Source: Serratia marcescens (lineage in GTDB: Bacteria > Pseudomonadota > Gammaproteobacteria > Enterobacterales > Enterobacteriaceae). From it: a DNA stretch of 64,000 bases. The notes beneath the pieces are model-generated. The model ran no database searches. It saw only the letters and a program-made list of their open reading frames with translations, and was not told the DNA's origin. The stretch lies in contig NZ_MJAO01000004.1 of NCBI RefSeq assembly GCF_001902635.1, forward strand, positions 1 to 64,000, read 5' to 3'. Shown here in pieces: positions 17,602-27,812 of the stretch (the stretch's first letter is position 1; every line of letters starts with the position of its first letter). Position numbers and translations under genes: made by a program.

Positions 17602-19089
17602 TCAGGCGGAGGCCGCTTCCAGCCGCTGATGTTGGTAGCCGTAGCCGCCCTCGCCGTCAGGCACAAAGCTGAGGCGGTGGGTGATGCATTGCGGCGCGTC
17701 TTCGGCATGGTGCGACACGAACAGCAGCTGGGTGGCGCCCTGGCCGATCAGCACGTCGATGAAGCGGCGCACCAGCTGGCGATTGAGCGGATCCAACCCC
17801 TGTAACGGCTCGTCGAGGATCAGTAGCGCCGGGTGCTTCACCAGCGCACGGGCGATCAGCGCCAGCCGCTGTTGGCCCCAGGAAAGGCTGTGGAACGGGG
17901 CATCGCCACGCGCGCCGTCGAGCCCGAGCAGCGCCAGCCATTGCTCGGCCAGCTGCCGCTGACGATCCGAAACCGCCTGATAGATGCCGATCGAGTCGAA
18001 GAACCCCGACAGCACCACGTTGCGCACGCTGGTGTTGACGCGATAATCCAGATGCAGGCTGCTGCTGACGTAGCCGATATGGCGTTTGATTTCCCAGATG
18101 GTTTCCCCACTGCCGCGGCGGCGGCCGAACAGCGTCAGATCGTTGCTGTAGCCCTGTGGATGATCGCCGGTGATCAAGCTGAGCAGGGTGGATTTGCCGG
18201 CGCCGTTCGGGCCGACGATCTGCCAGTGTTCACCGGGGTTAACCTGCCAGTCGAGGTGGTTGAGGATCGGTCGATCGTTATAGCTGACCACGCCGTCGCG
18301 CAAAACGATCAGCGGCCGATCCGCCGGCAGCGTCACCTTTTGCGTCGGATCCTCGATCTCCGGCAGCGCCAGCCCGCTGAGATTTTCGCTGTGCGCCAGC
18401 TGCGCCACCAGCGCATCCGCCATCACCTGACTACGCGGCCCGCGGCTGGTCAGGGTGCAGTCCGCCAGCACGCCCACCTGCCGGACAAAATCCGGTATTT
18501 CATCGAAACGGTTGAGCACCAGCACCACGGTCTGGCCTTGGGCGGAAAGTGCGCTCAGCAGCGTGGCGAGCTGCGCGCGCGAGTGAACGTCCAGCCCGTC
18601 GAAGGGCTCGTCGAGGATCAGCAGGTCAGGCTCGGGCATCAGCGCCCGGCACAGCAGGGTTTTACGCGTTTCGCCGGTGGAGAGGTATTTGAAGCGGCGC
18701 GTCAGCAGGGCGGTGATGCCGAACTGCGCGGCCAGCCGTTCACAGCGCGCGGCGTCTTTCACCTCTTCCTGAATGATTTCCGCCGCGGTGCGGCCGGTGT
18801 CGTCCTCGTCCGCGCTGAGCAGATCGGTGTTGTTGCGTTGCCACTCGTCGCTGACCATTTTTTGCAGCTGTTCGAAGGAGATGCGCACCGCGTGCTGAAA
18901 ATCGCTGCGGCGTTCACCGCTCAGCAGAACCAGTTCGTCCGCCAGCGCGCGCGCCAGGGCGGATTTGCCGCTGCCGTTGGCGCCGACGAAGGCCCAGCTG
19001 TCGCCGGCCTGGATTTCCAGCGCGTCCAGCGTCAGGGTGCGAGTATCGCTTAAGCGGAATGAACCTTGCGAAATGTGCAACGACGACAT
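17602..19089 (-). CDS. modF: ModF, tandem ATP-binding cassette protein of the mod locus
   Basis: ModF is a cytosolic protein with two ABC ATPase domains and no known permease partner. It sits beside modE in E. coli and its role in molybdate metabolism is unresolved. The 495-residue product has Walker A motifs GANGSGKSA (about residue 35) and GPNGAGKST (second half), and signatures LSTGETRK and LSWGQQR. It aligns with E. coli ModF throughout. ATG 19089 (MSSLHISQGSFRL) is chosen by homology; seven codons upstream are also open. modE ends 90 bases upstream, so the two may share a transcript. Confidence 0.96.
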   Translation of the reverse strand: MSSLHISQGSFRLSDTRTLTLDALEIQAGDSWAFVGANGSGKSALARALADELVLLSGERRSDFQHAVRISFEQLQKMVSDEWQRNNTDLLSADEDDTGRTAAEIIQEEVKDAARCERLAAQFGITALLTRRFKYLSTGETRKTLLCRALMPEPDLLILDEPFDGLDVHSRAQLATLLSALSAQGQTVVLVLNRFDEIPDFVRQVGVLADCTLTSRGPRSQVMADALVAQLAHSENLSGLALPEIEDPTQKVTLPADRPLIVLRDGVVSYNDRPILNHLDWQVNPGEHWQIVGPNGAGKSTLLSLITGDHPQGYSNDLTLFGRRRGSGETIWEIKRHIGYVSSSLHLDYRVNTSVRNVVLSGFFDSIGIYQAVSDRQRQLAEQWLALLGLDGARGDAPFHSLSWGQQRLALIARALVKHPALLILDEPLQGLDPLNRQLVRRFIDVLIGQGATQLLFVSHHAEDAPQCITHRLSFVPDGEGGYGYQHQRLEAASA

Positions 19090-19179
19090 CACCTGTTCCT
19101 TTTTTTGCAATTATTTGCCTTAGAATTAGGCGCATTGCACGGTGATGTCAATCAACAAAAACGCAACGTCACGTTGCGC

Positions 19180-19971
19180 TTAACACAACGTGGCGACAAT
19201 CACGTGATCGGCGTTGAACAGGGCGTGTACGGCAGTGCCGACGCTTAATTGCAGACGCTGCAACTCCGCCGTCGTCAGGGTGGCACACAGGGTTTCGCCG
19301 CCCGCCAGCGTCACCAGCACCTCGCTGTGTTCGGCGCCCGGCTGAATGCCGGCCACCACGCCCGCTAGCGCGTTATCTGCGCCGGCGTTATCCGCCGCAT
19401 CGACACTTAACCGCACCCAGGGCGCTTTGATCAGCGCCAGTACCTCTTTGCCGGGCGTCAGCTGCAGCCGGTCGGCGCTTTGCTGGGTGATGGCCGCCGT
19501 CAGGCGAGTACCGCCGTCGTTCAACAAGATCGCCAGATGCTGTTGCACCTGCTGATGATCGCGTTCGATCACGGTGCCGAAAAACTGATTGCGGGCGCTG
19601 GTTTGCAGCGAGAAGCGCGAGATGGCCGCCAGCAGGCTGTCGAGCGGCAGGTCGTCTTGCTGCAATACGTCGAAGGCCTTTTGCTGCACCTGGCCCAGCA
19701 GGTCATACAGCTGTATCAACCGCTGGCCATAGTGCGTCAGCTGCGCACCGCCGCCGCCTTTACCGCCGGTGGCGCGTTCCACCACCGTTTGTTCCGCCAG
19801 CTGGTTCATTTCATTGATGGCGTCCCAGGCGCTTTTATAGCTGATGCCCGCCAGTTTGGCGCCCTGGCTGATGGAGCCGGTGTGCTGTACCTGTTTCAGC
19901 AGTGCGATGCGGCGCGGATCGGCGAACAGCTTTTGCTGGAGTTTAAGAGTCAGAAGAATTTCGGCCTGCAT
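19180..19971 (-). CDS. modE: Molybdate-responsive regulator ModE
   Basis: ModE binds molybdate or tungstate, represses modABC and activates Mo-dependent genes such as moaA. The 263-residue protein has an N-terminal winged helix (LLKQVQHTGSISQGAKLAG), the linker GGKGGGGAQLT and two C-terminal molbindin (TOBE) domains, as in E. coli ModE. ATG 19971 (MQAEILLTLKLQQ) matches E. coli. In E. coli modE is next to acrZ-modABC; here a five-gene uptake operon separates them, and the 188-bp divergent region holds a Zur box. ModE sites are visible upstream of modA and moaA. Confidence 0.97.
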   Translation of the reverse strand: MQAEILLTLKLQQKLFADPRRIALLKQVQHTGSISQGAKLAGISYKSAWDAINEMNQLAEQTVVERATGGKGGGGAQLTHYGQRLIQLYDLLGQVQQKAFDVLQQDDLPLDSLLAAISRFSLQTSARNQFFGTVIERDHQQVQQHLAILLNDGGTRLTAAITQQSADRLQLTPGKEVLALIKAPWVRLSVDAADNAGADNALAGVVAGIQPGAEHSEVLVTLAGGETLCATLTTAELQRLQLSVGTAVHALFNADHVIVATLC

Positions 19972-20077
19972 AGCACATCCTGTCGGCGGCAAAAATCTTA
20001 TTGTCGCCGATTTGGCGGCAAAGCGCCAAACGCAGTGCGGTGGAAAGCGTGGGTAATAAAGACTGGCACTGTATTAT

Positions 20078-20092
20078 TGTTATAATATAACA
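20078..20092. promoter_or_regulatory. Zur box overlapping an extended -10 promoter
   Basis: TGTTATAATATAACA is a perfect 15-bp palindrome identical to the core of the gamma-proteobacterial Zur consensus TGTTATANTATAACA; the outer GAAA/TTTC flanks are only partly kept. It contains TGTTATAAT, an ideal extended -10 element, which predicts a start site near 20093 for the operon that begins at 20160. Bound Zur would block RNA polymerase. I prefer Zur over ModE here because the best ModE alignment (20069-20092) matches only 11 of 16 positions. Confidence 0.85.
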
Positions 20093-20159
20093 TAACATAA
20101 AAACGATAAGCTTTACGCCGGTTGCGGCCGATTTTTATTTCACCACAGGGATGCTCCAC

Positions 20160-22319
20160 ATGAGTACGACACGCCGGCGTCTTCGCACGCCCAGACAATC
20201 TTTATGCCTTGCCGCCTGGGTCGGCGGCGCACTGACGGCGCCGCTGGCCATCGCTGCCGACTGCGATAAAGCCCGCAATGCCACGGGGTGCGAAGAACAG
20301 CTCACCGTGGAGGCGGCGGCCCCCGCCGGGCGCTACGATGCGTTGAGCGCCGTGAGCCGCAGCGCTTCGCAGCTCGGGCTGACCGCTCGGGAGACGCCGC
20401 GCAGCGTCGATATCATCAGCGCAAGAGCGATCCAACAGCGGGGCGATCGCTCGCTGGCCGCCGCCGTTGAGCGCGCCACCGGTCTGTCCGGCGTCGCTTC
20501 GCCAACGTTGTCCAACAACTTTTCCGCGCGCGGTTTCCGGCCGATCGCCTGGCTGTACAACGGCGTGGAGATGCCCGGCAGCACGCTGCAGCTGGGCGAT
20601 CCTTCTCATTACGACAGCGTCGAGGTGCTGCGCGGGCCGGGATCGGCATTGAACGGGCTGAGCGCCGCGGGTGGCAGCGTCAACCTGATCTCGCGGCGGC
20701 CGACCTTCAGCCGCCAGCCGTTCGAGCTCGATTATGGCTTCGGCAGCTACCGCAGCCAGCGCCTGCATCTGGGGGCCGGCGGCGCGCTGGTGGATGACGC
20801 GGTGGCGTACCGGTTGGACGTCAGCGGCAACGACAGCGGCAGCAACGTGCAGTATGAACGCGATCGGCAGAAGCGGGTTTCCGGCTCGCTGCTGTTTAAA
20901 CTGACGGACGATGCGCTGCTGACGCTGAGCCTGGATCGCATGCTCAACCGCACCAACAACCCTTACTATGGCACGCCGCTGCTGGACGGGCGCATTGCCG
21001 GCGAGCTGCGCGACATCAATTACAATAACCTCACCGACAGCCGCATCCAGAGCAACGCCACGGCATTTCAGGCCAGTCTGGACTGGTTTATGACGCCCGA
21101 CGTGGAGTGGCATAACCAATTCTATTACTACAGCGGCTTTCGCGAATGGCGCAACGTCGAGCGTTTCCGCGTCACGGCGGCGGCCCGGCCCGGCGACGTC
21201 AACCGCGACTCCTTCGGCGCCTTGGCACACGACGACGATCTGATCGGCAACCGCAGTTCGCTGGTGTTCGACCGCGCCGTCGCCGGGTTCGATAACCGGT
21301 TGCTGGTCGGCCTCGATTTGAGCAAGCGGCATTTTCAGTATTACTCCAACGGTTTCCCCGGCTCCGAAGACGTGCCGCTCGGGGCGCCGCCCAGAGAGCC
21401 GTTCGCCCAGGGCACCGACCGCCAGCGTGCGCCGGTACGCCACGTCACCCAGAACCAGTACGCCGCCTTTCTCGAAGATCGTTTCAGCCTGACCGAGCGT
21501 TTAGCGTTGCTGGGCCAGCTGCGCTACAACCACATGAATATGGACTGGCGCTTCCAGGGGCCGCAGGCAGAGAGCCGCGCGCGCACCTACGTTTTCAGCA
21601 CCTGGAGCCTGGGCCCCAGCTATGCGCTGACCGACGACCTCACGATCTACGCCAACTACACCACCGGCCAGGAGCCGGGCAACGATTTGTTCTTCCTCAG
21701 CCCAACGCAGACCGATCTGCCGCTGACGCGAGCGCGCCAGTGGGAGGCCGGCGCCAAAGGGCAGTTCTGGGAGGATAAAGGCGAGGTGACGCTGGCGCTG
21801 TACGAACTGCGCAAAGACAACCTGTTTGTGCCCGACGCGCAGCGGCCGGATGCGTTGAGTGCGGTAGGCAGGCAGACGTCGCGCGGCATCGAGCTTGGCG
21901 TGGTGCTGCGTCCCGACGAGCGCTGGGAGCTGGCCGGCAACGCCGCCTACACGCATGCCCGCTACGACGACTATCGCGGCGGCAGCCCGCTGCGCAGCTA
22001 CAACGGCAATCGCCCGGCCTATATCCCGGACTGGGCCGCCAACCTCAGCGTGCATTATCAGGCGACGGAGCGCCTGGGGCTGGTTTCTTCGCTGCGTTAC
22101 GTCGGCAGCAGTTACAACGACGACGCCAACCGCCGCAAGATGCGCGCGTACACCACGCTCGATCTGGCGGCGGACTATCAGCTGACGCCGATCGTCGATG
22201 TCGGTTTTCGCATTCGCAACGCCACCAACCAGCTGTACGCCTATCAGCGCACCTACCCGGACCAGGCGCTGATCGCGCCGCCGCGCAGCTATGAAACCTT
22301 CGTGTCGGTCAGGTTCTGA
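20160..22319 (+). CDS. TonB-dependent outer-membrane receptor (Zur-controlled, probable zinc-chelate uptake)
   Basis: The 719-residue product has a signal peptide (about 1-33, ending LAIAA), a possible TonB box near EEQLTVEA, a plug domain (about 55-170, with the plug hallmark VEVLRGPGSALNGLSAAGG) and a 22-strand barrel ending in Phe, as in FhuA-type siderophore receptors. ATG 20160 is preferred over the ATG at 20151 because AGGG is then eight bases away. The Zur box puts it under zinc rather than iron control. It is followed after four bases by a binding protein. The ligand could be free zinc complexed by a small chelator; the exact ligand cannot be told from sequence. Confidence 0.9.
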   Translation: MSTTRRRLRTPRQSLCLAAWVGGALTAPLAIAADCDKARNATGCEEQLTVEAAAPAGRYDALSAVSRSASQLGLTARETPRSVDIISARAIQQRGDRSLAAAVERATGLSGVASPTLSNNFSARGFRPIAWLYNGVEMPGSTLQLGDPSHYDSVEVLRGPGSALNGLSAAGGSVNLISRRPTFSRQPFELDYGFGSYRSQRLHLGAGGALVDDAVAYRLDVSGNDSGSNVQYERDRQKRVSGSLLFKLTDDALLTLSLDRMLNRTNNPYYGTPLLDGRIAGELRDINYNNLTDSRIQSNATAFQASLDWFMTPDVEWHNQFYYYSGFREWRNVERFRVTAAARPGDVNRDSFGALAHDDDLIGNRSSLVFDRAVAGFDNRLLVGLDLSKRHFQYYSNGFPGSEDVPLGAPPREPFAQGTDRQRAPVRHVTQNQYAAFLEDRFSLTERLALLGQLRYNHMNMDWRFQGPQAESRARTYVFSTWSLGPSYALTDDLTIYANYTTGQEPGNDLFFLSPTQTDLPLTRARQWEAGAKGQFWEDKGEVTLALYELRKDNLFVPDAQRPDALSAVGRQTSRGIELGVVLRPDERWELAGNAAYTHARYDDYRGGSPLRSYNGNRPAYIPDWAANLSVHYQATERLGLVSSLRYVGSSYNDDANRRKMRAYTTLDLAADYQLTPIVDVGFRIRNATNQLYAYQRTYPDQALIAPPRSYETFVSVRF

Positions 22320-22323
22320 CGGC

Positions 22324-23319
22324 GTGAAACGCTGGCTTGGCCTGCTGTTGTGCGCCCTGGGATTGGGCGGAGGCGTGCCGCTGCGTGCCGATGCCGTCAG
22401 CCTGCAAAATTGCGGGGTAACGCGCGATTACCCGCAGCCGCCGCAGCGGGTGCTGGTTTACGCCAATCCGGCATTGGAAAACCTGTTGGCGCTGGGGCTG
22501 GCCGGCCGCGCGATCGGCGTGGTCGGGTATGACCGCGCGCGCGATCCCGCGCCGACGGCGCCGGCCGATGCGCTGCGGGTACCGACCAGCCCAGCGCCAC
22601 CCTCGGCGGAAGCGTTGCTGCTGATGCGGCCGGATTTTGTCTATTCGGCCAGCTATTACTGGCTGCACAGCCCGGAAACGCCCGATCAGGCGCGGCTGGC
22701 GGCATGGGGCATCGGCAGCTACCTCTCTCCCGGCGCCTGCAGCGGCCAGCAAAGCGCGATCGCCGCCGCGCTGACGTTCGAAGACATTTTCACCGAGCTG
22801 CGGGAGCTGGCGCGTATTTTCAACGTCGGCCGCGCCGGTGAAGTGCTGGTCGAACGGTTGCGCGGGCAGCTGAGGGCGCTTGAGGCGCAGCGCGCGCCGC
22901 TGCCGCATTGGCGTCTGCTGTGGTGGTATGCCGGTACGCAGACGCCTTATGTGGCGGGCTGCTGCGGCGCCCCGGGCTTGCTGAGCCGCAGCGTCGGCAG
23001 CGCGAACCTGTTCGGCGATCGGCCCGAGCTGTGGCCGACGGTGTCCTGGGAAACCATCGCCGCCCGCGATCCGGATGCGATCGTGCTCGGCGATCTGCCG
23101 CGCGGCGGCCTCGGCGACAGCGCGGCGGACAAGATCGCCTTTCTGGAACATCACCCGCTGACCGCGACGCTGCGCGCCGTGCGTCAGCGGCGCTACGTGA
23201 TCCTCCCCGGTTATGACATGGACCCTTCCGCCCGCACCGTGGCGGCGCTGGGCCGTTTGATTCGGGGCCTGCAGGATTTGCCGCCGCAGGCTCCGACTTT
23301 TTCCAACAAGGAACCTTGA
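22324..23319 (+). CDS. Periplasmic binding protein of a BtuF/FecB-type importer
   Basis: The 331-residue product has a signal peptide (VKRWLGLLLCALGLGGGVPLR) and a class III binding-protein fold like BtuF and FecB: an N-lobe (PQRVLVYANPALENLLALGLAGRAIGVV is the usual opening, read in parts), a long linking helix near 150-185 and a C-lobe. GTG 22324 gives a clean signal peptide; ATG 22291 lies inside the receptor gene. Four cysteines remain (30, 139, 213, 214), and the adjacent pair in AGCCGAPG lies in the loop that faces the ligand cleft in this fold. It should hand the ligand to the FecCD-type permease downstream. Confidence 0.85.
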   Translation: MKRWLGLLLCALGLGGGVPLRADAVSLQNCGVTRDYPQPPQRVLVYANPALENLLALGLAGRAIGVVGYDRARDPAPTAPADALRVPTSPAPPSAEALLLMRPDFVYSASYYWLHSPETPDQARLAAWGIGSYLSPGACSGQQSAIAAALTFEDIFTELRELARIFNVGRAGEVLVERLRGQLRALEAQRAPLPHWRLLWWYAGTQTPYVAGCCGAPGLLSRSVGSANLFGDRPELWPTVSWETIAARDPDAIVLGDLPRGGLGDSAADKIAFLEHHPLTATLRAVRQRRYVILPGYDMDPSARTVAALGRLIRGLQDLPPQAPTFSNKEP

Positions 23320-23320
23320 T

Positions 23321-24076
23321 ATGACTGCCGTTTCATTCTCTTCGCTGCTGGACTCCTGGGATCGCCAGCAGGCGGCCTACATCGCCGAGCGGGAAGCGCG
23401 TTTTAACGCCCAGCTGGAGGTGCTGGCGCTCGCCGCCGGCCAGGATTTTCACGTGGTGGATCTGGCCTGTGGCCCAGGTTCGCTGAGCCTGCGCATTTTG
23501 CAGCGCTTTCCGCAGGCCAGGGTGACCGCCATCGATCTCGATCCGCTGCTGCTGGCGGTGGCGCGCGGCGCGCTGGCGGAGTACGGCGATCGGATCCGCA
23601 TTCTGCAGGCCGATCTGGCTGATCCCGCCTGTTTTTCCGCGCTGTCGGGCCCCGCGCCGCAGGCGGCGGTCTCCAGCACGGCGCTGCACTGGTTGATGCC
23701 GGAGCAGCAGCTGGCGCTGTACCGCAACGTCGCCAGGCTGTTGGCCGATGGTGGCGTGTTCCTGAACGCCGATCATCAGCGTTATGACCACCGCCAGCCG
23801 CGGTTGAAAGCGTTGGCCGAGCGGCACGACGAGCAAACCCAGCAGCGCGCCTGGGCAAACGGCGTCGAGGATTGGGATCGCTGGTTCGCGGGCGCGCTGC
23901 AATCGCCGGCGCTGGCCGCTTATCAGGCCGAGCGTGAAGCGCTGTTCGCCGGCCGCTCGGTGCCGCCGCCGACGCCGCTGGATTTCCAGCTCGCGGCCCT
24001 CAGACAGGCCGGTTTCAGCGAGGCGGGGACGGTGTGGCAGCTGTTGGACGACTATGTGATCGCAGGCTGGAAATAG
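23321..24076 (+). CDS. SAM-dependent class I methyltransferase within the uptake operon
   Basis: The 251-residue cytosolic protein has the SAM-binding motif VVDLACGPGSL (46-56), the acidic end of strand 2 (AIDLDPLLLAVARG) and the later motifs VSSTALHWL and LLADGGVFLNADH of the Methyltransf_25 type. It starts one base after the binding-protein stop and ends one base before the permease start, so it belongs to the same polycistron. Import operons rarely carry such an enzyme. It could modify a chelator, help release metal from the imported complex, or act on something unrelated; none of this is shown by sequence. Confidence 0.85.
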   Translation: MTAVSFSSLLDSWDRQQAAYIAEREARFNAQLEVLALAAGQDFHVVDLACGPGSLSLRILQRFPQARVTAIDLDPLLLAVARGALAEYGDRIRILQADLADPACFSALSGPAPQAAVSSTALHWLMPEQQLALYRNVARLLADGGVFLNADHQRYDHRQPRLKALAERHDEQTQQRAWANGVEDWDRWFAGALQSPALAAYQAEREALFAGRSVPPPTPLDFQLAALRQAGFSEAGTVWQLLDDYVIAGWK

Positions 24077-24077
24077 C

Positions 24078-25103
24078 ATGAACCGGCGGTTACTGCCCGA
24101 CCGTGAGGCCGGCTGGCTGCTGTTGCTGGCGGCGGCGCTGCCGCTGGCCCTGCTGGCGGCCACTCTGTCGGGGCCTGCGCCGATCGCGTGGCATGAAGCC
24201 TGGCGCATCGTATTTGGCGTCAGCGGCGGCGAAGCGCCCGATGCCGAGGTATATCAGCGCATCATCTGGTCGCTGCGCATACCGCGCGCGTTGCTGGCGG
24301 CACTGGCCGGCGCCGGGCTGGCGCTGGCGGGCACCGTGCTGCAGTCGCTGACCCGCAACCCGCTGGCCGATCCCTGGGTGCTGGGGATCTCCTCCGGCGC
24401 CGGCGTGGGGGCGGTAACGGTGTTGGTACTGGGGCTGGGCGGCGGTCTGCTGTCGGTGTCCGGCGGGGCATTTCTCGGCGCGCTGGGGGCGTTTGCGTTG
24501 GTGATGCTGCTGGCCGGGCGTTCGCTGCAGGGGGAGTCCACGCTGTTTATTCTGGCCGGGGTGGCGGTGACGCAGCTGCTCTCTGCGCTGACTTCGCTGA
24601 TCACCCTGTGGCAGGCGGACGCCAACGTTACGCGCGGCGTGATGTTCTGGCTGCTGGGTTCGTTCAGCGACGCGCGCTGGCCGCAGGTCTGGCTGTGCGG
24701 GTTGGCGCTGGCGGCGGTGCTGCTGCTTTGCTGGCTGCGGGCGGGTGAGCTGGACGCGCTGGCGTTCGGCGGTGTGACCGCCGCTTCGCTGGGGGTGGCG
24801 GTGGCTCCGCTGAAGCTGTTGCTGTATGTGGCGACCACCGCGCTGACGGCGGCGATCGTCGCGTTCAGCGGCGCGGTGGGATTTATCGGGCTGACGGTGC
24901 CGCACGTCGCCCGGCGGCTGGTCGGCTCGCGGCATCGGCTGCTGTTGCCGGCCAGCGCGCTGTGCGGCGCCCTGTTCGCCGTGGCGGCGGACACGCTGGC
25001 CAGAACGCTGTTTGCCCCGCGCGAGCTGCCGGTAGGCGTGTTGACCGCATTGTTGGGTGTGCCGGTATTCCTGCTGTTGCTGTATCGGAAGGTCAATGCA
25101 TGA
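24078..25103 (+). CDS. FecCD/BtuC-type ABC permease
   Basis: The 341-residue protein has about ten membrane segments and the FecCD family hallmarks: RIPRALLAALAGAGLALAGTVLQ, broken only by reading, then NPLADPWVLGISSGAG in the N-terminal half, and GFIGLTVPHVARRLVG for the coupling helix that docks on the ATPase. Two copies would form a type II importer. It ends on ATGA, overlapping the ATPase start by four bases. Such permeases carry siderophores, haem, B12 and, in some species, molybdate or zinc chelates, so the substrate is inferred from the Zur box. Confidence 0.93.
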   Translation: MNRRLLPDREAGWLLLLAAALPLALLAATLSGPAPIAWHEAWRIVFGVSGGEAPDAEVYQRIIWSLRIPRALLAALAGAGLALAGTVLQSLTRNPLADPWVLGISSGAGVGAVTVLVLGLGGGLLSVSGGAFLGALGAFALVMLLAGRSLQGESTLFILAGVAVTQLLSALTSLITLWQADANVTRGVMFWLLGSFSDARWPQVWLCGLALAAVLLLCWLRAGELDALAFGGVTAASLGVAVAPLKLLLYVATTALTAAIVAFSGAVGFIGLTVPHVARRLVGSRHRLLLPASALCGALFAVAADTLARTLFAPRELPVGVLTALLGVPVFLLLLYRKVNA

Positions 25104-25888
25104 CGGTTGAAAAAACGCGATCCGGCTTGTGCGCCGAGGCGGTGAGCTGGCAGGCGGGAGCGCGCACGGTGCTGGAAAATCTCAGTATCTGTGCCTTGCC
25201 CGGCGAGATCACCGGCGTGCTCGGCGTCAACGGCAGCGGCAAATCCACGTTGCTCAAGCTGCTGGCCGGGCTGCAGCCCGCTGACGGCGGCCGCGTATGG
25301 TTGGAAGGGCGCGAGATCGCCGCATTTTCCGGGCGGGAGCGCGCCAGGCGCATCGCCTTTCTCGAACAATCCGCCCCCGGCGCCTTCGCGCTGCCGGTAA
25401 AGGAGGCGGTGTTGCTGGGGCGCCTGGCCCATGTCGGCCGTTGGCGCGGATTCGCTGCCGAGGATCGCCGCATCGCCGGGCAGGCGATGGAGCAAGTGGG
25501 CATCAGCCACCTGGCCGATCGCGATTGGCAGCGGCTGTCCGGCGGCGAACAGCAGCGGGTGCATCTGGCGCGCGCGCTGGCGCAGCAAACGCCGTGGCTG
25601 CTGCTGGACGAGCCCGCCAATCATCTGGATATCGCCCATCAGCAGCAGTTTATGGCCTTGCTGCGGCGGCTGAAACTCAGCGTGGTGGTGACACTGCACG
25701 ATCTGAATCTGGCGGCCTGTTATTGCGATCGGGTGGCGCTGTTGCAGCGGGGCGCGGTTTATGCGACGGGGGCGCCGCGGCAGGCGCTGACGCCGGAGAA
25801 CATTCGCGCGGTGTACGGGCTGGAGGCCAGGCTGGCTGCGCCCGCCGGCTATGCGCCGCCGCTGATTTACTATCCCGTTCAGGATTAA
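25100..25888 (+). CDS. ABC importer ATPase (FecE/BtuD type)
   Basis: The 262-residue cytosolic ATPase carries Walker A GVNGSGKST (42-50), the signature LSGGEQQR, Walker B WLLLDEPANHLD and the switch histidine in VTLHDLNLA. It pairs with the FecCD-type permease that overlaps its start, completing a type II importer. ATG 25100 is set by that ATGA overlap. It is the last gene of the Zur-preceded operon; no good terminator follows, and acrZ starts 156 bases later with its own promoter-like sequence. Confidence 0.93.
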   Translation: MTVEKTRSGLCAEAVSWQAGARTVLENLSICALPGEITGVLGVNGSGKSTLLKLLAGLQPADGGRVWLEGREIAAFSGRERARRIAFLEQSAPGAFALPVKEAVLLGRLAHVGRWRGFAAEDRRIAGQAMEQVGISHLADRDWQRLSGGEQQRVHLARALAQQTPWLLLDEPANHLDIAHQQQFMALLRRLKLSVVVTLHDLNLAACYCDRVALLQRGAVYATGAPRQALTPENIRAVYGLEARLAAPAGYAPPLIYYPVQD

Positions 25889-26044
25889 GGCCAGCGAGCC
25901 GGGGCATCAAAGGGCACGTTTGGCCGAATACAAATTCGCCCCGCTGACTAAAATAACCCCGGTTTTACCCGTTCTTTTGGGTTAGAATAACCCTTATGCG
26001 GTGAAAGGCATTTGCCGCTCATTGGGCAGTTAAGCGAGGCTATC

Positions 26045-26194
26045 ATGTTGGAATTATTGAAAAGTCTGTTGTTTGCCGTGGTGATGGTGCCGATCGTTAT
26101 GGCGATCATTCTCGGTCTGATTTACGGTTTTGGCGAAATATTCAACGTTTTCTCCAAAGTGGGTCGTTCGAAAGAAAATCGTACTCAGCACTAA
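26045..26194 (+). CDS. acrZ: AcrZ, small subunit of the AcrAB-TolC pump
   Basis: AcrZ is a 49-residue single-helix inner-membrane protein that binds AcrB and tunes which drugs the pump exports. The product matches E. coli AcrZ nearly residue for residue over [16 protein letters not shown] and the following IILGLIYG segment. ATG 26045 is preceded by AAGCGAGG. In E. coli it also lies between modE and modA. Upstream TTTTGGGTTAGAATAACC contains a -10-like TAGAAT. E. coli acrZ responds to MarA/SoxS/Rob; I cannot confirm a marbox here. Confidence 0.93.
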
Positions 26195-26291
26195 CCGTTC
26201 CCCATCCCGATACCCGTCGGCATCGCCCGGCGGGCATTCCTCAAGTTATCTCACGCTTTGCCGATAAACCGCATGACAAGCTTTCGCGCAA

Positions 26292-26315
26292 CGTTATATT
26301 ATTTTTTATATAACG
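26292..26315. promoter_or_regulatory. ModE operator of modABC
   Basis: CGTTATAT, eight bases, then ATATAACG form a perfect ModE palindrome. It overlaps a TATATT -10 element (ATGACA 16 bases upstream as -35), so Mo-bound ModE would repress modABC as in E. coli. Confidence 0.9.
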
Positions 26316-26352
26316 AAGAGTGATAATGCACGTTAACTTGCGGAGAAAAACA

Positions 26353-27126
26353 ATGAAACAGCAATGGACCAAATGGGTTGGCGGGATCGTGTTGGCGTCG
26401 GGTCTGGTGGCTCAGGCCTCGGCGGCGGAGAAGATCACCGTGTTTGCCGCCGCGTCGCTGACCAACGCGCTGCAGGACATCGCCACCCAGTATCAAAAAG
26501 GCAAGGACGTGCAGGTGGTGTCCTCCTTCGCATCGTCCTCGACGTTGGCGCGCCAAATTGAGCAGGGCGCCCCGGCCGATCTGTTTATCTCCGCCGATCA
26601 ACAGTGGATGGATTACGCCATCGACAAGCAGCAGATGGTAAAAGATACCCGCTACACGCTGTTGGGCAACGAACTGGTGCTGATCGCCGCCAAGAGCGAT
26701 AAGCAAGATAAGATCGCCATCGACAAACAGACCGACTGGGCCAAACTGCTGAACGGCGGCCGCCTGGCGGTGGGCGATCCGGATCACGTGCCGGCCGGCA
26801 TCTACGCCAAAGAAGCGCTGGAGCACCTGGGTGCCTGGAGCGCGCTGGAACCGAAACTGGCGCGCGCCAACAACGTGCGCAGCGCCATGGCGTTGGTGGA
26901 GCGTGGTGAAGCGCCGCTCGGCATCGTCTACGGCTCCGATGCGGTCGCCAGCGACAAGGTGAAAGTGGTGGGCGTATTCCCGGAAGACAGCCACAAACCG
27001 GTTGAATATCCGATGGCAATTGTGAAAGATCGCCAAAATCCGACGGTCAGCGCTTTCTATACCTATCTGAAGGGCCCGGAAGCGGCCGCTATTTTCGAAC
27101 ATTATGGATTCACCCCGCGTAAATGA
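26353..27126 (+). CDS. modA: Molybdate-binding protein ModA
   Basis: ModA captures molybdate or tungstate in the periplasm and delivers it to ModBC. The 257-residue product has a signal peptide (1-24, ending ASA) and the class II binding-protein fold with the ligand-site sequence FAAASLTNALQDI and SFASSSTLARQIE. ATG 26353 has GGAG ten bases upstream; an open extension to 26320 runs close to the ModE operator and is not homologous. Its stop overlaps the modB start (ATGA), so modABC is coupled. Confidence 0.97.
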   Translation: MKQQWTKWVGGIVLASGLVAQASAAEKITVFAAASLTNALQDIATQYQKGKDVQVVSSFASSSTLARQIEQGAPADLFISADQQWMDYAIDKQQMVKDTRYTLLGNELVLIAAKSDKQDKIAIDKQTDWAKLLNGGRLAVGDPDHVPAGIYAKEALEHLGAWSALEPKLARANNVRSAMALVERGEAPLGIVYGSDAVASDKVKVVGVFPEDSHKPVEYPMAIVKDRQNPTVSAFYTYLKGPEAAAIFEHYGFTPRK

Positions 27127-27812
27127 TTCTGAGTGAGTACGAGTGGCAGGCGGTTGAGCTGAGCCTGAAAGTATCCGGTTTGGCGGTGGCTTGCAGTCTG
27201 CCGTTCGGCATTCTGATGGCTTGGGTGCTGGTGCGTTGTCGCTTTCCCGGCAAGGCGCTGCTGGACGGCATTATCCACCTGCCGCTGGTGCTGCCGCCGG
27301 TGGTGGTCGGCTATTTGCTGCTGATCGCTATGGGGCGGCGCGGCGCGATCGGCGAGTGGCTGTACGACTGGTTCGGGTTCAGCTTCAGCTTTAGCTGGCG
27401 CGGTGCCGCGCTGGCATCGGCGGTGGTGGCGTTTCCGCTGATGGTGCGCGCCATTCGGCTGGCGCTGGAGGCGGTGGATACCCGACTGGAGCAGGCGGCG
27501 CGCACGCTGGGCGCTAACCCGTGGCGGGTGTTTTTCACCATTACGCTGCCGCTGTCGCTGCCCGGCGTCATTGTCGGCGTGGTGCTGGCCTTCGCCCGCT
27601 CGCTGGGGGAGTTCGGCGCCACCATCACCTTCGTCTCCAACATTCCCGGTGAAACCCGCACCATTCCGCTGGCGATGTATACGCTGATCGAAACGCCGGG
27701 GGCGGAAGCCGCCGCCGCGCGCCTGTGCGCGATCGCCATCGTGCTGTCGCTGGCTTCGCTGATGATGTCCGAATGGCTGGCCCGCTGGGGCCGCAAACGG
27801 ATGGGGGTGTAA
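27123..27812 (+). CDS. modB: Molybdate ABC permease ModB
   Basis: ModB is the membrane subunit of the molybdate importer. The 229-residue protein has about six membrane segments and the EAA coupling loop EQAARTLGANPWRVFFTITLP, read in two parts, which contacts ModC. It matches E. coli ModB throughout. The start overlaps modA by four bases, and modC follows with no spacer, so stoichiometric coupling of the three subunits is likely. Confidence 0.97.
   Translation: MILSEYEWQAVELSLKVSGLAVACSLPFGILMAWVLVRCRFPGKALLDGIIHLPLVLPPVVVGYLLLIAMGRRGAIGEWLYDWFGFSFSFSWRGAALASAVVAFPLMVRAIRLALEAVDTRLEQAARTLGANPWRVFFTITLPLSLPGVIVGVVLAFARSLGEFGATITFVSNIPGETRTIPLAMYTLIETPGAEAAAARLCAIAIVLSLASLMMSEWLARWGRKRMGV

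Follow-up and report, generated by a model that had tools for sequence, protein, structure and literature searches.

A predicted Zur-controlled metal-chelate importer operon with a methyltransferase gene in Serratia marcescens and its relatives

Organization of the five-gene operon and its control region

We analyzed a 64,000-nucleotide stretch of DNA (the window) from Serratia marcescens, comprising positions 1-64,000 of the forward strand of contig NZ_MJAO01000004.1 in the assembly GCF_001902635.1. The examination revealed five co-directional genes on the plus strand downstream of a Zur-type box, which touch or overlap each other. The first gene (20160-22319) encodes a TonB-dependent receptor of 719 amino acids (PF00593 and PF07715), and the second (22324-23319) a periplasmic binding protein of the vitamin B12/siderophore class (PF01497). 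They are followed by the genes for a class I SAM-dependent methyltransferase of 251 amino acids (23321-24076, PF13649), a FecCD-type permease (24078-25103, PF01032 at 293.6 bits) and an ABC ATPase (25100-25888, PF00005). All five proteins match these Pfam families above the curated cut-offs, and the tight, co-directional arrangement agrees with an earlier note on this DNA, which had read the same five genes as an operon. Among the NCBIfam matches listed, none of the five proteins scored above a model's cut-off, and the best matches of the receptor were siderophore-receptor models (TIGR01783, 211 with a cut-off of 223.5). For the receptor, we preferred the start at position 20160 over that at 20151, since the Met at 20160 is invariant in 20 aligned receptors; a stop codon is located between positions 20151 and 20160 in the two clade-2 Serratia loci inspected. 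The GTG start of the binding protein was read by eye and agrees with a homologue of 331 amino acids. The structure model of the methyltransferase had a pLDDT of 94.5, and its nearest folds were CysG and BelI.

On the left, the operon is flanked by modE on the minus strand (19180-19971; NF007957, 473.9 bits with a cut-off of 369). On the right, locus comparison places a small gene on the plus strand (26045-26194), which we take to be acrZ, and modA lies beyond it, starting from about 26353. A ModE-type box precedes modA at 26292-26315 and is separate from the Zur operator.

The putative Zur operator is the perfect 15-bp palindrome TGTTATAATATAACA at 20078-20092, exactly as the earlier note had read it, and it is kept in the relatives described below. 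When the window was scanned for the palindrome with up to three mismatches, three matches were found against a shuffle expectation of 0.14, and all three represent the same place. The earlier note had also placed an extended -10 element inside this core; by eye, TGTTATAAT can indeed be read as such at 20078-20086 on the plus strand, but a promoter scan that requires two hexamers listed no promoter at this position. Since the operator includes this putative extended -10, the repressor, once bound, would cover the promoter. In addition, an 18-mer at 20079-20096 fits the purine-pyrimidine skeleton that the accessible text of PMC4219657 gives for two E. coli Zur dimers, a loose pattern with 295 fits in the 64-kb window. 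The skeleton fits the box of the window and nine of the ten boxes of the other Enterobacterales operons, the exception being L144, and it does not fit the ppiB/cysS box or the DUF1007 box of the own genome.

Downstream of the operator, the 24-nt leader TTTTTATTTCACCACAGGGATGCT at 20132-20155, on the plus strand, contains the ribosome-binding site and is conserved genus-wide. It is identical in 15 of the 19 other operons of the genus and carries one mismatch in the remaining four, and the best matches in five loci of other Enterobacterales have 8-9 mismatches. The conserved leader exceeds the length that a ribosome-binding site requires. An attenuator in the leader was considered because a GC-rich stretch lies before TTTTTATTT; the z-scores of five folded leaders ranged from -0.9 to 0.3 and gave it no support. 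A search for a cobalamin riboswitch in 19000-27200 returned just three Rfam matches, each unrelated and below the gathering score.

Conservation of the Zur box and the insertion site

We then scanned the own genome (5.26 Mb, 65 contigs) for the Zur palindrome. Four perfect boxes were found: one each upstream of the L31 gene (rpmE2) and of folE2, one in the gap that separates ppiB from cysS, and the one that precedes the operon described here. The single site with one mismatch precedes a DksA-family gene, and four of the ten sites with two mismatches are located at znuA, zinT, a gene of the DUF1007 family and a gene for an ABC ATPase; no such gene was seen at the inspected ones among the other six (L009 and L010 left out). 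We take L31 (rpmE2), folE2 and the families at the other best sites to be typical Zur targets. With up to three mismatches the genome count was 85, which does not exceed the 95 of a reversed-pattern control, and therefore only the best sites carry weight. The Zur protein itself is encoded in the genome (NF008646, 240 bits with a cut-off of 167). Two of these sites deserve separate mention. The perfect palindrome between the divergent ppiB and cysS genes (G000:C3:264019-264033) may mark an additional Zur target; the product of cysS, cysteinyl-tRNA synthetase, is a zinc enzyme. A distance of about 3 kb separates the ABC ATPase gene with the two-mismatch box from the L31 gene and its perfect box (C3:170000-176500 of the own genome).

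Within the genus, the binding protein is present in 20 of 30 genomes, with an identity of at least 88% in 12 and of 66-68% in eight (own genome included in the 30, the 20 and the 12). In all 19 other operons of the genus, modE on one side and acrZ/modA on the other enclose the five genes, and a box with zero to two mismatches starts 67-75 bases 5' of the aligned receptor start. The clade-1 box is perfect in eight of 11 genomes and reads TGTAATAATATAACA in three, and the clade-2 box reads TGTTATAACATAACA in seven of eight genomes, the last one having two mismatches. The operon is absent from ten genomes of the genus. Six of these have modE, and all six show an empty site, in which acrZ is located about 190 bases from modE and is followed by modA; the other four (1.5, 1.9, 2.5 and 3.6 Mb) gave no modE match. 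In the genomes of three family members outside the genus, the modE-acrZ gap was 110-163 bases, and modA was seen in two of them. These empty sites indicate that the operon was inserted between modE and acrZ, as the earlier note had proposed for the mod locus, or was cleanly lost from it. When 369 genomes of the class were searched with the binding protein, four including the own one had a match at 1e-30, indicating that the close form is rare outside the genus.

Two other genomes of the genus, G003 and G007, contain a second cassette (ATPase, binding protein and permease) with a perfect Zur box, at a distance of about 68 kb from their first one (L065:3691-6473 and L078:3259-6029), and similar boxed sets occur in two other genera (L075 and L076). 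Weaker paralogue sets in G001, G012, G036 and G046 have no box better than three mismatches, and a binding-protein search did not find the second-cassette paralogue in the own genome.

The methyltransferase-importer cassette in two phyla

To follow the cassette further, named genomes were scanned with a methyltransferase alignment, which yielded 245 relatives via two peptide patterns, and the best 80 loci were kept. The binding protein and the permease both accompany the methyltransferase at 73 of these 80 loci, the permease does so at 75, and a match to the ATPase lies near it at 63. Ten loci (L093-L100, L110 and L144) contain the receptor, binding protein, methyltransferase and FecCD permease in the order of the window, and their hosts are Cedecea, Citrobacter, Enterobacter, Klebsiella, Shimwellia, Biostraticola and an Enterobacterales bin. 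No adjoining ATPase gene and no modE or modA match was found in these ten loci, so that their permease must borrow an ATPase. A box with one or two mismatches from the consensus precedes the receptor in all ten, and in L093 and L094 it forms the perfect 18-bp palindrome GTTATGTTATAACATAAC. A gene that looks by eye like znuA lies about 4 kb from the end of the operon in Cedecea davisae (L100). Related methyltransferase operons in Pelistega and a Rhizobiales bin (L137 and L143) have no box near the enterobacterial consensus. Based on the box kept in all 19 same-genus operons and all ten operons of other Enterobacterales, and on the encoded Zur protein, we suggest that the Zur control proposed in the earlier note is well supported by comparative sequence, and repression would be the expected mode of this control.

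The majority of the remaining kept loci belong to Actinomycetota; they contain a binding protein, a methyltransferase, a permease and an ATPase, and for the most part the order is that of the window. For these, we built a Zur matrix from just nine sites, which are predicted in M. smegmatis in the accessible part of PMC7174638, and counted 53 cassettes of 56 loci, leaving out three in which no binding protein precedes the methyltransferase. With a threshold of 17 bits, which was chosen after the score list was known, a box of at least this score lies between -500 and +40 of the binding protein in 27 of the 53 cassettes; shuffling (20 times) gave a mean of 0.15 and at most one, and the box density upstream of the cassettes was 85 times that across the rest of the loci. 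The 26 cassettes with no strong box include all seven of the Rhodococcus group, all three of Aeromicrobium and all five Patulibacter, Solirubrobacter and Conexibacter loci. In 11 cassette genomes, the actinobacterial palindrome with at most one mismatch occurs 7-21 times, compared with 0-6 times for the reversed control. When 19 of the actinobacterial sites were read by eye, several were found before znuA-like, L28 or L32 genes and two before the cassette. By eye, a further Zur-like box near a cassette was seen before a ZnuA-like gene (L129:15352-16331).

G498, a mycobacterial-group genome, has a methyltransferase that is 44% identical to the one of the window and is encoded divergently from the binding protein, permease and ATPase genes, with a box of 28.6 bits located between them. 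In Enterobacter BIGb0383 (L162:7929-8807), a lone relative of the methyltransferase (41%) is preceded by a Zur-like box, the start of which lies 72 bases upstream, and farther up by a Fur-like box. Judged from the sequences of these two loci, the methyltransferase follows the Zur switch even when the gene order breaks. By eye, the neighbors of the lone gene of BIGb0383 look like genes for a glycosyltransferase and FadL.

In a tree of 81 methyltransferases, the enzyme of the window groups with 19 other cassette enzymes of Enterobacterales in one starred clade. The deep forks of this tree are weak, and thus we do not claim a direction of transfer. A scan of viral contigs with the methyltransferase found no relative, and the plasmid scan returned 18 records, all below 60% identity, seven of them from Streptomyces. 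In a partly accessible published data set, the class I methyltransferase MSMEG_6055 of M. smegmatis is listed with a 498-fold increase in a zur mutant (q value of 1.00) and a 28-fold increase with TPEN, and it has two predicted Zur sites. By this description, MSMEG_6055 may be a member of the methyltransferase cassette group, and a search of 60 genomes from the genus of Mycolicibacterium wolinskyi gave three matches at 1e-40. In another source available in part, the methyltransferase pden2984 of Paracoccus denitrificans, encoded two loci from an Fe/B12-type ABC set, was 1.5-1.6-fold up at low zinc. A literature search with limited coverage of subscription journals listed no report of the five-gene set or of a cassette shared across phyla. 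Based on these comparisons, the most informative gene of the operon is the methyltransferase, which the earlier note had named and left aside. What appears to be new here is an importer cassette that occurs in two phyla, includes a methyltransferase and is often linked to Zur; it represents a variant of metallophore uptake.

Comparison with known systems and the proposed function

According to the available parts of PMC11481552 and PMC13083405, PA2911-2914 of Pseudomonas aeruginosa is a Zur-regulated set proposed to import pyochelin-cobalt, thereby coping with zinc shortage. The earlier note had likened the operon to this set, and by description the likeness stands loosely, with Zur-type control of a TonB receptor and an ABC importer resembling siderophore/vitamin B12 uptake in both. 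However, PA2911-2914 consists of four genes, a methyltransferase is not mentioned in the accessible text of PMC11481552, and the proposed cargo is pyochelin-cobalt, so that zinc control need not imply a zinc cargo. It is possible, although we would not favor it, that the operon imports a cobalt-metallophore under zinc starvation and that cobalt stands in for zinc, which changes only the metal of the explanation preferred below. The published operon of similar composition points this way, as does the class of the binding protein and permease, which also includes vitamin B12 importers; on the other hand, that operon is likened by description, has no methyltransferase reported in the text available, and the sequence of the window carries no sign of metal identity.

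Within the genus, FecCD importers with a Zur-type box are less rare than the earlier note had implied. Opine zincophore operons of the yersinopine type in three Serratia-genus genomes (L215, L216 and L217; three of the five opine-positive genomes, viewed widely) likewise have a Zur-like box, with one mismatch, and an importer of the PF01497 class that includes a FecCD permease and an ATPase. These operons differ from that of the window in encoding an opine dehydrogenase (PF10100) and an importer of their own, and they contain no match at 1e-3 to the receptor, binding protein or methyltransferase of the window. PF10100 was found in five of the 12 same-genus genomes searched, and it is absent from the own genome and from all 25 non-Serratia cassette genomes searched. 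Since the own genome has no opine dehydrogenase, zincophore uptake here cannot simply mean uptake of a self-made opine. Nicotianamine synthase (PF03059) was not found in 15 genomes, a list that does not include the five opine-dehydrogenase genomes, and the negative result therefore gives no proof that CntL would have been detected by this search.

In the accessible part of PMC7438024, actinomycetes with FecCD-only opine clusters are described to encode an extra methyltransferase, which is suggested to modify the zincophore; this remark is the nearest printed precedent we found for the methyltransferase-importer linkage. It would agree with a biosynthetic methyltransferase that finishes or marks a self-made metallophore, which the importer then retrieves. 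We regard this as doubtful, considering the distribution of PF10100 described above and the opine operons of three of the five opine-positive Serratia genomes, which have no counterpart of the window's methyltransferase.

Other known systems were compared at the level of the single proteins. The best NCBIfam models for the binding protein and the ATPase were those of EitABCD and the 'F420-0' ABC transporter, and the binding protein scored far under both cut-offs (111.8 of 640 and 173.4 of 392.4). The nearest solved receptor by sequence is CrtA (BfrG) of Bordetella (E 1.2e-63), which the available part of PMC12914433 describes as a TonB transporter for copper chelates, linked to copper and not to Zur. 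By eye, Glu337 and His358 of CrtA align with Glu337 and His360 of the window's receptor, whereas the CrtA ligand residues Tyr130, Trp265 and Arg395 are not matched and Gln356 falls in a gap. CysG and BelI, the nearest folds of the methyltransferase, are metal-dependent carboxyl O-methyltransferases of antibiotic pathways according to the accessible text of PMC11408123. However, only the first His of their His-His-Asp metal motif aligns with the window's enzyme (His123), and the second position is Trp124.

The matches of the receptor, binding protein and permease to siderophore-uptake models could also suggest an ordinary Fur-controlled importer of iron-siderophores, in which the palindrome is incidental. 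This is very unlikely, because the best Fur-box match in the modE-receptor spacer has seven mismatches in 19 positions, and the Zur-type box is conserved genus-wide and family-wide. A ModE site, with the operon belonging to molybdate/tungstate metabolism like its neighbors modE and modA, can hardly be entertained despite this location and similar half-sites, because the best promoter match has five mismatches in 16 positions compared with the perfect match before modA at 26292, the same 15-mer also precedes rpmE2 and folE2, and a box kept throughout the genus and in ten operons with no modE or modA match in their loci fits Zur and does not fit ModE.

Sequence comparison establishes the operon, its conserved operator, its insertion site and the linkage of methyltransferase and importer in two phyla. 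On this basis, we consider it likely that the operon encodes a Zur-repressed metal-chelate importer for zinc starvation, with the methyltransferase acting on the cargo. When zinc is available, zinc-loaded Zur would sit on the operator, cover the -10 element and shut the operon; when zinc drops, Zur would leave the operator and the operon would be switched on. The receptor would then bring a complex of metal and ligand through the outer membrane, from where the binding protein would pass it to the FecCD-ATPase importer, and the cytoplasmic methyltransferase would act on the imported ligand. The protein families point to chelate import, and the regulation suggests both the use in zinc starvation and the metal, which would be zinc or a zinc-replacing cobalt; zinc as the cargo, which the earlier note had favored, is plausible, and the imported ligand is the presumed substrate of the methyltransferase. 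Against this explanation we counted the 26 of 53 actinobacterial cassettes with no strong box, the operons L137 and L143 with no box close to the enterobacterial consensus, the ten Enterobacterales operons without an ATPase gene, and the receptor that matches siderophore models.

A more specific and rather speculative extension is that these cassettes are zinc-starvation importers across the two phyla in which the methyltransferase serves as an unloading enzyme. Methylation of a coordinating group, perhaps a carboxylate, would release the metal in the cytoplasm. This is proposed because zinc (or cobalt) is not freed from a chelate by reduction, unlike iron. To our knowledge, the unloading of redox-inert metals from imported chelates in bacteria is largely open, and we know of few worked examples of zinc import across the outer membrane.

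Across Serratia and some other Enterobacterales, as well as many actinobacteria, the gene of one enzyme accompanies the importer and frequently also the zinc switch, and the question of what the methyltransferase acts on is thereby reduced to one about a single protein. For genes whose closest models are called 'F420-0 transporter' or 'siderophore receptor', this linkage offers a clue to their biology.
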